From a virus, in IMG/VR virus record IMGVR_UViG_3300030737_000042, positions 1 to 25,677 of that record: a DNA stretch of 25,677 nucleotides; one strand, 5' to 3'. The position numbers were made by a program, and so were the translations under genes. A model generated the notes under the pieces. That model worked only from the letters and a program-made list of their open reading frames with translations, was not told the DNA's origin and ran no database searches. Shown one piece after another: positions 6,401 through 10,561 of the stretch (position 1 is the stretch's first letter; every line of letters starts with the position of its first letter).

Positions 6401-7203
6401 CCCTCCTCATCGACGCTGACGTTCTCCGCTACCAACTGTCGTTCAAGAACACCAAGACAGTGAAGTGGGAAGACGAGGACGACGGCGCTGAGGTAGTAGT
6501 CGCAGAGGTCACCAACCCCGAGAAGGCGAAGGCCGACCTGGACGACTATATCGAGGAGCTGCTGGAGAAGTTCGGAACACGCGAGTTCCTCCTGCCCCTC
6601 TCGGTGTCCACCAACTTCCGCAAGGGAATCTTGCCGACCTACAAGGGCAACCGCACGAAGCCGAAGCCAGCCCTGTGGAACGCCGTGGATGGCTTCCTAC
6701 ACGAGCTGTACCCCGAGAAGATCATCACCCGCGAATATCTCGAAGGCGATGACATCCTGGGTCTGCTGGCAACCATGCCGAAACCCCGACTGGCACCCGG
6801 CAAACGAATCATCGTGTCCATCGACAAGGACATGCAGACGATCCCAGGCCGCCTGTTCAACCCCGGCAAGCCTGACATCGGCACCCGTACGATCAGCGAG
6901 CACGAAGCCAATCTGTTCTGGATGAAGCAAGTGCTCACCGGGGACACCGTAGACAACTACAAGGGCTGTCCCGGCATCGGCCCCAAGAAAGCTGACGAGT
7001 TCCTTATGCCCGTCCATGAGGCCCTGCTGGGTCTGACGGTAGAGGAGCACCTGGCCGCCCTGTGGGTGACCGTCACGATGGTCTATGAGTCCAAGGGCTT
7101 TACCGCCGAGGACGCACTGATCCAGGCCCGTTGCGCACGAATCCTGCGAGACGGCGATTACAACTTCAAGACCGAGGAGGTGAAACTTTGGACACCACAG
7201 TAA
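6394..7203 (+). CDS. 5'-3' exonuclease, FEN superfamily, T7 gp6-like
   Basis: A 269-residue flap/5'-exonuclease. Acidic metal ligands are seen in LLIDADVLRY (D7, D9), EGDD (E117, D119, D120), SIDKDM (D144, D146) and GDTVDNYKGCPGIGPKKA (D184, D187, leading into the helix-3-turn-helix DNA-binding element). YKGNRTKPKP is the expected basic arch region. In T7 gp6 removes RNA primers, degrades host DNA and recombines ends. The start is TTG 6394, which places the usual few residues before the first Asp strand; it overlaps the preceding gene's stop. A purine-rich GAAGGG lies about ten bases upstream. The stop at 7201-7203 overlaps the next gene. Confidence 0.93.
   Translation: MLTLLIDADVLRYQLSFKNTKTVKWEDEDDGAEVVVAEVTNPEKAKADLDDYIEELLEKFGTREFLLPLSVSTNFRKGILPTYKGNRTKPKPALWNAVDGFLHELYPEKIITREYLEGDDILGLLATMPKPRLAPGKRIIVSIDKDMQTIPGRLFNPGKPDIGTRTISEHEANLFWMKQVLTGDTVDNYKGCPGIGPKKADEFLMPVHEALLGLTVEEHLAALWVTVTMVYESKGFTAEDALIQARCARILRDGDYNFKTEEVKLWTPQ
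7175..7190 (+). promoter_or_regulatory. Strong Shine-Dalgarno fixing a TTG start
   Basis: AGGAGGTGA (7175-7183) is the best ribosome-binding sequence in the left half of the window and stands seven bases before TTG 7188. It fixes the start of the diphosphohydrolase-like gene at that TTG, inside the 3' end of the exonuclease gene, even though the frame is open further upstream. Confidence 0.8.
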
Positions 7204-7547
7204 AGACGGGAGTCAAGCATGATGCCGGCAAGGCACCGCTCAGTTTGATCCCTGCTGATGCCTTAACCGAGATCGCTAACGTCTTCGGTTTCGGCGCTCA
7301 GAAGTACGCCGCATTCAACTGGACAGGCGGATTCGACCATCGGCGTTTGTACGACGCGATGCTGCGCCATACGTTTGCCTCACTGGCCGGCGAAAACGTC
7401 GATTCCGAGAGCGGCCGTGATCATCTGGCACACGCTGGCTGCTGTATTTTGATGCTGCTATCACACCGCTTGCGCGGCCTCGGAACAGACGACCGTGGCC
7501 CCAACGAAAAGACGAATGGACTCACTCATCAAGCGGTCGAGCGTTAA
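7188..7547 (+). CDS. dATP/dGTP diphosphohydrolase-like protein (DUF5664 family)
   Basis: A 119-residue protein starting at TTG 7188. The pattern KHDAGKAPLSLIPADALTEIANVFGFGAQKYAAFNW..G....RLYDAMLRHTFASLAGENVDSESGRDHLAHAGCCILMLL matches, as I know it, the phage family called dATP/dGTP diphosphohydrolase N-terminal (DUF5664): K.DdGK..L.LIP, FGA.KY...NW, RH, G...D.ESG..HLAHA. The family is all-alpha with the conserved His/Asp/Glu likely to bind metal and nucleotide. A nucleotide-pool role fits its position after the replication genes. Enzymatic activity of this stand-alone domain is inference. The last 26 bases overlap the 3' end of the reverse-strand gene that follows. Confidence 0.75.
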   Translation: MDTTVKTGVKHDAGKAPLSLIPADALTEIANVFGFGAQKYAAFNWTGGFDHRRLYDAMLRHTFASLAGENVDSESGRDHLAHAGCCILMLLSHRLRGLGTDDRGPNEKTNGLTHQAVER

Positions 7548-8460
7548 CGTGTTCATTCAGCGCATTCGAATATTCGGACGACGCCTGCTTGATGGCATTG
7601 CGCACGTCTAATTCCAACACATTTTTGATGTTCGCCAGGTCCAGCCCCACGTTGTCTCTGTCCCAGCTGTATCTCAGGTTGGCGGTCAGCTTTTTAGTTC
7701 GATTCCACGCCGTTATCACTATTTGATCGGGCGTCACCGTGAAAACGAAATGATAATCAGAAAAGGCCTTCCGGCTATTTACATAGCTCGTGAGGTCGGC
7801 TTGGACGAACTGTTCTGCCACTAGGAGAACGCGGTTGGGCGTCAACTCAGGAGCCACGAAGGCGGTAGAACTAGTTCGCGACGAACGCTCAGTTACTACT
7901 CGCATTTCCGTTCTAAGGGCTGCAAGTTCTGCGAATAACATCGCCTGCATTTCTCCTGAACTGTCGTTCTGCTTGCCGAGCGTACGCATTAGGCCGGCGC
8001 GAACTATGGGATTTGAAGCTCCGGTATGCGTACCCGATGCAGAAATGGCGGCAGAAAGATCATCGCGCCACGCTTGGAGACCCATAACGGACGCGTCGTA
8101 AAAGATCGTATTGATGCCACCGATGTCAAACGGAAGTGCTTCACCGTTCTCTATCATTTGCACCAGCGGTTTGTCGGTTGCATGTCGAACAGCCACCTCA
8201 TACATGACGTTGGGGTTGTGGCCATGCAGGTCAACAATGACCAAATCAGCATCAATAATTTTATTTACGATGCCTTCGGTGACCATGCCGGGCGCTTTGT
8301 CTTCGTCGGCGCGCTCAACGACGTAGCCGAGCTTCTCGGCAACTGGACGAATCACCTCTCTGAGGAATCCATCGGAACGCCGCCGGGCTTCGGAATTGAT
8401 ACTTCCTATCGGACTGACAACGAAACACTTTTTCGCGGGTGCAACTGTGTCGTCCTTCAT
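7522..8460 (-). CDS. Nucleoside 2-deoxyribosyltransferase/TIR-like protein (moron)
   Basis: A 312-residue protein read leftward, the only convincing reverse-strand gene. Residues about 10-140 form a Rossmann-like domain: CFVVSPIGS at the first strand, RADEDKAPGMVTEGIV, ADLVIVDLHGHNPNVMYEVAVRHA, then KPLVQMIENGEALPFDIGG and TIFYD. D72, D77, N82, N84 and E88 fit the nucleotide-glycosidase site of the NDT/TIR superfamily, with E88 as candidate catalytic Glu. Residues about 170-312 (a helical segment, then strands around DYHFVFTVTPDQIVITAW) are unrecognised and may sense or oligomerise. The start ATG at 8458-8460 has AGGGGG just upstream. The gene is richer in A+T than its neighbours (about 40% G+C in 8221-8280, counted by eye). 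It is flanked by converging and diverging genes, as expected for an acquired moron. Function is inferred. Confidence 0.8.
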   Translation of the reverse strand: MKDDTVAPAKKCFVVSPIGSINSEARRRSDGFLREVIRPVAEKLGYVVERADEDKAPGMVTEGIVNKIIDADLVIVDLHGHNPNVMYEVAVRHATDKPLVQMIENGEALPFDIGGINTIFYDASVMGLQAWRDDLSAAISASGTHTGASNPIVRAGLMRTLGKQNDSSGEMQAMLFAELAALRTEMRVVTERSSRTSSTAFVAPELTPNRVLLVAEQFVQADLTSYVNSRKAFSDYHFVFTVTPDQIVITAWNRTKKLTANLRYSWDRDNVGLDLANIKNVLELDVRNAIKQASSEYSNALNEHVNARPLDE

Positions 8461-8627
8461 CTTTCCCCCTAATGACTCCCCTTCTCGATCGTCAGTCTAC
8501 TTGAATATCCATAGCCTCCGAAAAGAGCGCGCGCGGGTAAAACAACCAGCATAGGAGGAAACAACCGTTTCCCATCAAGGGTTCCGGTGGTTCTTGAAGA
8601 TCCCGTTCACGAATCACGGAGCCCCCT
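8461..8627. promoter_or_regulatory. Divergent intergenic region between moron and virion operon
   Basis: This 167-base gap separates the leftward moron start from the rightward virion genes and must hold any promoter for the moron. It contains an alternating GC run (8527-8537), AGGAGG at 8553-8558 with no start codon at a useful distance, and a perfect inverted repeat (8557-8572). I find no convincing -35/-10 pair on either strand and no T7-type promoter that I can recognise. It is the largest non-coding gap in the window. Confidence 0.5.
8557..8572. repeat. Perfect inverted repeat GGAAAC-AACC-GTTTCC
   Basis: Six-base arms GGAAAC (8557-8562) and GTTTCC (8567-8572) surround AACC. It lies in the divergent intergenic region and could be an operator half-site pair or a small hairpin. 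There is no T-run after it on either strand, so it is not an intrinsic terminator. The related string AAACAACC also occurs at 8540-8547, just upstream. No binding protein is known. Confidence 0.45.
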
Positions 8628-8807
8628 ATGTCCGAGAACATCCCCCTTCACGCCTACGACCTGATCGACGAGCTGGATAAGCGATACCCCGAGGTCATCT
8701 ACGACCCAAAAGGGGATCACAACGAGTTCCTTCTGAGATCAGGTGAACGTCGGCTGGTGTTGTCCCTCCTGCGAAAGCGTCAGCTCGAACAAGAGGAGCA
8801 GCACTGA
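8628..8807 (+). CDS. Small acidic protein of unknown function (59 aa)
   Basis: Starts at ATG 8628 with GGAG at 8618-8621, six bases upstream, and ends at TGA 8805-8807. The product (MSENIPLHAYDLIDELDKRYPEV..., then EFLLRSGERRLVLSLLRKRQLEQEEQH) has two charged helices and resembles the short conserved protein often found ahead of the portal in T7-like phages; I cannot name the family with confidence. It is the first gene of the rightward virion operon. Its good ribosome binding site and tight spacing to the next ATG (8811) support it. Confidence 0.72.
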   Translation: MSENIPLHAYDLIDELDKRYPEVIYDPKGDHNEFLLRSGERRLVLSLLRKRQLEQEEQH

Positions 8808-8810
8808 ACC

Positions 8811-8993
8811 ATGTGTACCAGTAAACCCAAGGCCCCCAAGCCCACCGAAGCGGAGAAGCCGGCCATCCTGCTGACCGCCCGTGATGGCCTGGGGGATCAG
8901 GAGAGTGCAACGACGGGTCGAAAGAATCTCCGCATCGACCTGAATAAGTCCACCTCCACCGCTTATGGAAGCAGTCTCGTTATCCCTACTTGA
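8811..8993 (+). CDS. Small virion/tail assembly protein, gp7.3-like
   Basis: A 60-residue protein from ATG 8811. It is Lys/Pro-rich at the N-terminus (MCTSKPKAPKPTEAEKP) and has the motif SATTGRKNLRIDLNKS near the end, close to the GR..LRIDL element in small proteins just upstream of the portal in many Autographiviridae. T7 gp7.3, in the same position, also ends with a GRKK..-type basic segment and is a virion protein needed for tail assembly and adsorption. The link to gp7.3 rests on position and motif. Its stop overlaps the portal start as TTGA. Confidence 0.68.
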   Translation: MCTSKPKAPKPTEAEKPAILLTARDGLGDQESATTGRKNLRIDLNKSTSTAYGSSLVIPT

Positions 8994-10561
8994 GCACGTC
9001 CGCACCGCAGACCGTCTCAGCAGAAGGCCGTTACTCTCAGCTCAAGTCTGATCGAAACAACGCCGAGTCCCGCGCAAAGCAATGCGCCACTCTCACACTG
9101 CCGACGCTTTACAAGGAAGTCTCGAAGGGCAAATCGAGTTCTTCCCGCACCACCCCGTACCAAGGCACCGGCGCGCGATGCGTTAACTCGCTGTCCGCCC
9201 GTCTGCTGTTGGCGCTGTTCCCTGCGAACGCCAACTTCTTCAAGTTATCTCCCGATGGCATGGACGCTAACCAGCTCGCAGAGCAGGCCGGCATCCAGCA
9301 GGGGGAGCTAGAGATGGGTCTCGCTGAGATCGAGCGTACCGTCATCAACGACATCGAAACGTCCGGCATGCGCGGACGCTTAGGCCTTGGCCTGAAACAT
9401 CTCGTGACGACCGGCAACGTACTGATGTACGTGCCCGACGAAGGCAACGCCAAGATGTACCCGCTGACCCGTTACGTCGTTGACCGCGACGGTATGGGTT
9501 CCGTCCTTGAAATCATCACCCTCGACAGCATCGCTCCGTCCACCTTGGGCAATGAGCTGAAAGCCTCGCTGGGTCTCGATGAGAAGAAGGGCGGCAAGAA
9601 CGATTCCGGCCCCGAGCAAGACGTTGAACTCTATACCCGCATCTACCGTGACGGTGAGCTGTGGCAGGTGTACCAGGAAGTGAACGGCAACATCGTTGCT
9701 GGCTCCCAAGGCACCTACCCCATCGACGCCTGCCCCTGGATTCCCCTGCGGATTCCCGAGGAAGACGGTGAGGACTACGGCGCGGGTCTGATCTACGACT
9801 ACTACGGCGACTTCGATGCACTGGAGAAACTGAGCAAGGCCATTCTCAAGGGAGCAGCAGCCGCCGCCAAGGTGCTGTGGGCACTCGATGAGAACGCCTC
9901 GATCCGCCCGAAGACCATCACTGAAGCCGAGTCTGGCGACGTGTTGCGCTTCAAGGCAGAACAGCTCAAGGCCGTATCGCAAGAGAAGTACGCCGATTTC
10001 AACTTCGTCGGTCAGCACATCGACAAACTGATTGCACGTCTGGAAATGGCGTTCGGTGTTCGCACCTCGATCCAGCGTCAGGGCGAGCGTGTCACTGCAG
10101 AGGAAATCCGTTACCTGGCTCAAGAGCTGGAGGATGTCCTCGGGGGCATCTACTCGATCCTCGCTGAAGACCTACTGCTTCCGTTGGTTCGTCGAATCAT
10201 GTATCGCCTCACGCGCACCCGCCGTCTTCCTGATCTGCCTCCTGGACTCATCAAGCCCCGCATCGTTGTCGGCGTCGCCGCCCTCGGTCGTGGTCAGGAC
10301 ATGCGCAAGATCATGGAATGGGCACAGGCAGCACAGCAGGTGCTCACGCCGCAGGTGTTCTCGTCTCGTGTCGATGCTGGCGAGTTAATGGCCCGTATGG
10401 GTGCAGCCTCCGATCTGACCATGAAGGGACTCATCAAGTCCGACGAGCAGATGGCGCAGGAACAGCAGGACGCCACCGCACACCAGGCAGCCATCCGCGC
10501 AGCCCCAACCATCGCAGGTGCCGCTATGGCACCACAAGGAGTTCCCAGTGGCGAAAGCTAA
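8990..10561 (+). CDS. Portal (head-tail connector) protein, gp8-like
   Basis: A 523-residue portal protein, the dodecameric ring through which DNA is packaged and ejected and on which the capsid assembles. The N-terminal pattern AEGRYSQLKSDRNNAESRAKQCATLTLPTL followed by YQGTGARCVNSLSARLLLALFPANANFFKL is typical of T7-like portals, as is the central IPLRIPEEDGEDYGAGLIYDYYGDF.LEKLSKAI stretch. Length agrees with T7 gp8 (536). The start is TTG 8990, in a TTGA overlap with the previous gene. The C-terminus (residues about 460-523) is Gln/Ala-rich and acidic-neutral, probably flexible. Confidence 0.95.
   Translation: MSTSAPQTVSAEGRYSQLKSDRNNAESRAKQCATLTLPTLYKEVSKGKSSSSRTTPYQGTGARCVNSLSARLLLALFPANANFFKLSPDGMDANQLAEQAGIQQGELEMGLAEIERTVINDIETSGMRGRLGLGLKHLVTTGNVLMYVPDEGNAKMYPLTRYVVDRDGMGSVLEIITLDSIAPSTLGNELKASLGLDEKKGGKNDSGPEQDVELYTRIYRDGELWQVYQEVNGNIVAGSQGTYPIDACPWIPLRIPEEDGEDYGAGLIYDYYGDFDALEKLSKAILKGAAAAAKVLWALDENASIRPKTITEAESGDVLRFKAEQLKAVSQEKYADFNFVGQHIDKLIARLEMAFGVRTSIQRQGERVTAEEIRYLAQELEDVLGGIYSILAEDLLLPLVRRIMYRLTRTRRLPDLPPGLIKPRIVVGVAALGRGQDMRKIMEWAQAAQQVLTPQVFSSRVDAGELMARMGAASDLTMKGLIKSDEQMAQEQQDATAHQAAIRAAPTIAGAAMAPQGVPSGES

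Follow-up and report, generated by a model that had tools for sequence, protein, structure and literature searches.

A reverse-strand TIR/NDT-like gene in an exchanged, defence-type cargo slot of temperate T7-like phages of Rhodanobacteraceae

A fragment of a T7-like podophage, a virus record of 25,677 bases (hereafter the window, meaning the whole stretch of DNA analysed), carries at positions 7522-8460 a reversed gene that close relatives have replaced with other genes at the same site. The gene probably encodes a prophage-borne, single-gene TIR/NDT-like anti-phage effector, most likely an NAD+ hydrolase, which is carried in a hotspot cassette and triggered via its C-terminal domain.

The gene, its slot and the phages that carry it

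Replication genes are located to the left of the gene, namely those for a helicase-primase, a family A DNA polymerase, an exonuclease and a dATP/dGTP diphosphohydrolase-like protein, and the genes for the head-tail connector, the capsid assembly protein, the major capsid protein and the nozzle protein are located to its right. The gene thus stands between the polymerase/exonuclease side and the connector/capsid side of the genome, that is, between the replication and virion modules, as the initial annotation had placed it. The features of this region, in window positions, are as follows:

7131-7547, plus strand: dATP/dGTP diphosphohydrolase-like gene (PF18909, E=9.5e-29), convergent with the 7522-8460 gene and overlapping it, with its end at the left slot border
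7510-8535, no strand assigned: exchanged cassette, set by blastn break points against L073, L017, L015 and L018 (relatives' flanks 86-98% identical)
7522-8460, minus strand: TIR/NDT-like candidate effector gene, 312 aa, ATG start
8536-8562, plus strand: conserved element GGTAAAACAACCAGCATAGGAGGAAAC at the right border of the slot, phage-promoter-like, putative
8629-8808, plus strand: conserved gene of 59 aa on the right side of the slot
8811-8993, plus strand: conserved gene of 60 aa on the right side of the slot
8990-10561, plus strand: head-tail connector (portal) gene, with which the large genes of the virion module begin (PF12236, E=4.8e-78)

The domain-matched genes of the window are all forward and 7522-8460 is the sole reverse gene found. 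Its GC content is 52.1%, against about 60% in both flanks, so that the earlier description of a lone reverse-strand gene, A+T-richer than its neighbours, proved accurate. A purine-rich sequence of the ribosome-binding type, AGGGGGAAAG, precedes the ATG. A sequence scan upstream of the gene detected no clear host-type promoter, and the same scan gave no convincing terminator. Two records besides the window have the gene, and the encoded proteins are identical.

Related loci were gathered with connector and dNTP-hydrolase queries (about 40), and a further four came from named genomes (Rhodanobacter sp. A1T4, ANJX3 and MP7CTX1, and Dyella silvatica). When the window is aligned by blastn to the A1T4 prophage (L073), the outer flank pieces are 95.6% and 96.0% identical and the piece beside the left border 90%; the alignment breaks off at 7509 and resumes at 8536. 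With L017, L015 and L018 the borders agree within about 10 bases. The exchanged block of about 1,026 bp holds the 7522-8460 gene alone, together with the last dozen codons of its left neighbour. In the A1T4 prophage, the same slot (L073:6464-7471) is occupied by a 335-aa DUF4238 gene (Pfam 2.1e-42, PADLOC 2.6e-64), and a single-gene DUF4238 system of the P2 hotspot provides strong resistance to T7 (PMC9122126). Comparative genomics thus supports the reading of the gene as a moron: it is not collinear in relatives, it is precisely replaced by other genes at the same site and its composition differs, as is the case for a cargo cassette.

The 22 filled slots hold 12 sequence clusters of cargo, all on the reverse strand and all with a GC content below that of the window's flanks. 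In particular, one cargo gene (L018:654-1544) encodes a second TIR/NDT-like protein (PADLOC 3.5e-9, Pfam NDT 4.8e-4), with an N-terminal half lacking an assignment and the TIR/NDT-like domain at the C-terminus. Others are a reversed gene for a four-TM protein with a CyanoTRADDas_TM domain (L015:607-1455, Pfam E=1.5e-11), a reversed gene for a peptidase C13/caspase-like protein with HLSAHG and SSCQG motifs (L020:3690-4394, Pfam 5.3e-4) and the genes for DUF4145/HEPN-like proteins in L032 and L033. Two-TM proteins (one of them in ANJX3), one-TM proteins and proteins without a family match make up other cargo, most of it weakly assigned in family searches, and in four loci (L014, L016, L027, L043) the slot lacks any noteworthy reverse gene. 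In temperate T7-like phages of Rhodanobacteraceae, this slot is a hotspot for defence-type cargo. The notion of a phage-carried defence effector is supported indirectly, by slot mates that include DUF4238, a family one member of which is validated against T7, and other defence-type proteins, and by the temperate nature of the phages.

Relatives also differ in the forward gene on the left side of the slot, which is exchanged for various hydrolase-like genes or a kinase-like gene, identified by eye (L014:5123-5530, L022:3224-3784, L020:3064-3693). Window positions 8536-8600, at the right border, read TAAAA-N7-CATAGGAGGAAAC and then a hairpin (GGAAAC/GTTTCC), and relatives show this arrangement at the same border. 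The GGTAAAACAACCAGCATAGGAGGAAAC element is present once in the window, zero times in shuffles and in 8/8 relatives scanned, with essentially one sense copy per genome; it may be a T7-like promoter or another signal.

A tyrosine integrase is encoded by 9/9 near-complete connector relatives tested (at least 33 kb), a count from which L004 was left out as only a TIR relative, and a T7-type RNA polymerase by 7/7 relatives tested. In A1T4, where the prophage lies in the chromosome, the element spans about 44 kb of the 543-kb contig C3 and is bracketed by the integrase at about 77 kb and the RNA polymerase at about 119-121 kb. Tyrosine integrases are also found in 28 of 40 IMG/VR records with homologues of the N-terminal domain. 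Since the window is a fragment that itself holds neither the integrase nor the T7-type RNA polymerase gene, we infer the temperate nature of its phage from the closely related prophage; temperate T7-like phages are documented (PMC10134795).

Two further observations concern the relatives. In the related prophage genome, an ArdA-like antirestriction protein was recognised by eye near the end that carries the integrase (L158:275-910, G001:C1:40274-40909), and its A1T4 homologue is 68% identical. On an IMG/VR contig, a TIR/NDT-like gene with an N-terminal extension (L004:5344-6528) lies in the vicinity of an ORF resembling a type I restriction-modification methylase.

Fold, active site and predicted substrate of the N-terminal domain

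Sixty full-length homologues were aligned and the alignment was used as the AlphaFold2 input. The parts of the protein distinguished in the model are the following:

8035-8436, minus strand: NDT/TIR-fold N-terminal domain, residues 9-142 (AlphaFold2, Foldseek, conservation)
8197-8199, minus strand: codon for Glu88, the predicted catalytic residue (E of NPNVMYE), aligned with the Glu that is catalytic in DNPH1 and NDT
7879-8010, minus strand: helical (stalk-like) linker, residues 151-194 (AlphaFold2 helices 151-164 and 170-194)
7525-7839, minus strand: alpha-beta-beta-beta-alpha C-terminal domain, residues 208-312, candidate sensor (AlphaFold2)

Residues 9-142 are modelled mostly at pLDDT >90, with alternating strands and helices. 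Among the 31 PDB structures that Foldseek matched with an E no higher than 0.001 are NDTs, the CMP N-glycosidase BcmB, DNPH1 and the SARM1 TIR, these with E values of 1.8e-5 to 1e-3. The hallmark of the fold, a Rossmann-like parallel sheet with a catalytic Glu following strand 3, is present. Structure prediction and fold search hence recover, in the N-terminal domain, the NDT/TIR fold that had been suspected, and the model assigns residues 9-142 to the NDT/DNPH1/TIR superfamily. This superfamily includes enzymes of nucleotide metabolism as well.

At the level of sequence, the N-terminal part is matched by PHROG 3634 (E=3.8e-46) and PHROG 10872 (E=1.4e-39), both without an assigned function, and by the PADLOC TIR effector model of CBASS/Pycsar (PDLC00733, E=1.3e-8), which also matches 60/60 homologues. 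The 312-aa protein matches no Pfam family at E<=1, PF05014 included, and no NCBIfam model; PF05014 matches 15 of the 60 homologues weakly (best 1.2e-5). A PDB sequence search with the protein gave no match, and one with the 60-sequence profile gave sub-threshold matches only, the relevant one being Rcl/DNPH1. The domain is widely distributed: tblastn found it in 56 deposited phage records, chiefly of Streptococcus, Staphylococcus and Klebsiella phages, and in 78 plasmids, and a scan with a degenerate pattern found it in 333 IMG/VR stretches. The idea that homologues always run opposite to their neighbours was dropped, as the signal in crude gene calls is weak (19/75 homologues against 109/697) and is therefore not used as evidence.

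The active-site motif VIVDLHGHNPNVMYEVAVRHA corresponds to residues 74-94 and contains Glu88. Phe13, Pro17, Leu78, Asn82, Asn84, Tyr87, Glu88, Pro110-Phe111-Asp112 and Pro151 are invariant in 60/60 homologues. In a joint MAFFT alignment of the family with DNPH1 and with bacterial NDTs of the host order, Glu88 falls on the catalytic Glu of DNPH1 and NDT, in support of the conserved NDT/TIR-type site and of the candidate residue named by the initial annotation. Two other positions differ from the nucleotide enzymes. Phe13, which is Phe in 60/60 homologues, occupies the column of the strand-1 Tyr of NDT and DNPH1, an assignment made by MAFFT only, profile-profile comparisons missing strand 1. Ile64 occupies the column of the general-acid Asp of DNPH1 (D80 in human, D69 in rat) and is V/I/L in 60/60. 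Both the deoxy-specific NDT/DNPH1 type and identity with DNPH1 (Rcl) were tried as assignments and rejected, the former on the Phe at the Tyr position, the latter on the aliphatic residue at the acid position.

According to a study on Thoeris TIR proteins, the position occupied by Tyr in deoxy-specific NDTs and DNPH1 is usually Phe or Ala in NADase TIRs (PMC11204291). The combination of Phe or Ala at this position with the catalytic Glu, typical of TIR NADases, is present here. Because Phe replaces Tyr and the DNPH1 acid is absent, a ribo-substrate would be favoured over deoxynucleotides, and NAD+ would be the simplest candidate. These two residue changes make the preference for NAD+ over deoxynucleotides a directly testable, sequence-based prediction. 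They also weaken the nucleotide half of the earlier suggestion that the protein acts on nucleotides or NAD.

A role in nucleotide metabolism is an unlikely reading, albeit the best placed of the alternatives. On this view the protein, an N-glycosidase of (deoxy)nucleosides or nucleotides, would reshape the pool during infection together with the product of the neighbouring dNTP diphosphohydrolase-like gene. The best fold matches in the PDB (NDT, BcmB, DNPH1), the dNTP hydrolase-like PF18909 gene beside the slot and the kinase-like or other nucleotide-type genes that relatives have to the left of their slots are all in line with it. However, besides the substitution of the deoxy-specific Tyr and the loss of the DNPH1 acid, the gene is reversed and is swapped, in near-identical phages, for unrelated membrane, DUF4238, protease-like and HEPN-like genes, its homologues carry varying added C-terminal domains and the family is found mostly in temperate phages.

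The C-terminal domain and the proposed mode of action

The initial annotation had described an unrecognised C-terminal domain of about 140 residues. The domain is indeed unrecognised, but the AlphaFold2 model does not favour a single unit and is better described as a helical stretch (about 151-194) followed by a compact domain (208-307). The latter is mostly at pLDDT 68-81 in the full-length model, and the same alpha-beta3-alpha topology is obtained when it is folded alone (pLDDT 76.7). It has no significant relative in phages and no relative in 399 genomes of the host order. In the PDB, Foldseek retrieved at best a non-significant match (E=0.14), the nearest folds being of the dsRBD/HPF type, seen in dsRNA-binding proteins and ribosome hibernation factors. 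As inspection by eye revealed no dsRBD signature residues and the E value is non-significant, dsRNA sensing is only a lead. Among the homologues, the N-terminal domain is conserved and the C-terminal part differs, a layout to be expected where an effector has interchangeable sensors; the C-terminal domain may accordingly be regarded as the candidate sensor.

By analogy with Swarozyc and SpbK, the proposed anti-phage effector would most likely work as follows. The protein would consist of an N-terminal N-glycosidase of TIR/NDT fold, with Glu88 as the nucleophile, joined through a helical stalk to a C-terminal domain specific to the lineage. During lysogeny, a host-type promoter belonging to the reversed gene would drive its expression, uncoupled from rightward lytic transcription. 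Upon infection by a competing phage, the C-terminal domain would contact a phage product, and this contact would lead the enzyme heads to cluster. The clustered heads would then hydrolyse NAD+ at Glu88, and the resulting NAD+ depletion would abort the infection.

TIR folds can also signal, and ThsB of Thoeris is a TIR protein (PMC11204291). Like ThsB, the protein might activate a second protein by producing a messenger of the cyclic ADP-ribose type, with no direct depletion of NAD+. We regard this as improbable, given that the cassette consists of one gene and has no adjoining ThsA-like partner. Still less probable is a catalytically silent NDT/TIR fold that serves as a binding module in superinfection exclusion or in the maintenance of lysogeny: small membrane proteins of the exclusion type do occur in the slot, but the catalytic Glu and the surrounding polar residues are invariant in 60 divergent homologues, which argues for catalysis. 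Variable phage slots can carry anti-defence as well as defence genes, and a phage-borne gene could remove a host signal, such as an NAD-derived or nucleotide messenger, during lytic infection; such counter-defence is equally improbable for a gene that runs reverse to the lytic transcription units and whose assigned slot mates belong to defence-type families.

Known systems and the place of the slot among them

Single-gene defence of the TIR/NDT NADase type on a mobile element is already known in kind. The closest parallel in layout is Swarozyc, a DUF4062 TIR-like NADase whose C-terminal domain binds the phage portal (PMC13174449). Both are single genes that combine an N-terminal TIR/NDT-like domain and its catalytic Glu with a helical stalk and a C-terminal auxiliary domain; the C-terminal domain is a different one here, the trigger of Swarozyc is the portal, and Pfam DUF4062 matches neither the 312-aa protein nor the 60 homologues. 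SpbK of ICEBs1, a TIR NADase triggered by the SPbeta portal (PMC11984713), is likewise a single-gene TIR protein on a mobile element, with NADase activity and abortive infection as features of SpbK itself. Its TIR domain is C-terminal, however, and the likeness is one of kind, not of demonstrated sequence similarity. Retron type II (Eco1) also uses an NDT-like effector domain in phage defence, as mentioned in PMC12405507, but the present cassette contains no reverse transcriptase or msDNA. In contrast to CBASS/Pycsar, no cyclase lies beside the effector; the cassette has one gene, and its neighbours are phage replication and head genes.

As for the slot, the hotspots of P2 and P4 (PMC9122126) are likewise defined sites, located in a temperate phage or a satellite, at which defence genes, TIR and DUF4238 among them, can be exchanged. 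The slot described here differs in belonging to a T7-like phage with an integrase, in lying between the replication and head modules and in holding one reversed gene at a time. Phages of the LUZ100 type share the T7-like gene order with a tyrosine integrase, and the available text of PMC10134795 notes no cargo slot for them. A defence hotspot in temperate T7-like phages was not found described in the literature searched, outside of which most subscription literature lies.

We therefore advance, as a tentative possibility, that temperate T7-like phages of Rhodanobacteraceae maintain, immediately upstream of their head module, a slot dedicated to a single defence gene, that the PHROG 3634/10872 TIR/NDT family with its exchangeable C-terminal sensors constitutes an uncharacterised, widespread prophage NADase defence, and that the sensor of the 312-aa protein, whose alpha-beta3-alpha topology resembles that of a dsRBD, may recognise a nucleic acid or some other product of infection that is not known as a TIR trigger. 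If so, T7-like phages, long regarded as strictly lytic, would include temperate lineages with a fixed slot for single-gene anti-phage weapons, and the slot would be a compact place for the discovery of new defence genes.

Relatives by sequence include the PHROG 3634/10872 proteins of Streptococcus, Staphylococcus and Enterococcus phages (such as SM1 gp11), which have a homologous N-terminal domain (about 33-44% identity) and unrelated C-terminal parts; in SM1, Javan306 and Mh1 the gene runs against its immediate neighbours, as in the window. Since this N-terminal family is widespread and its C-terminal parts vary, a single assay design could serve for many variants of the sensor.
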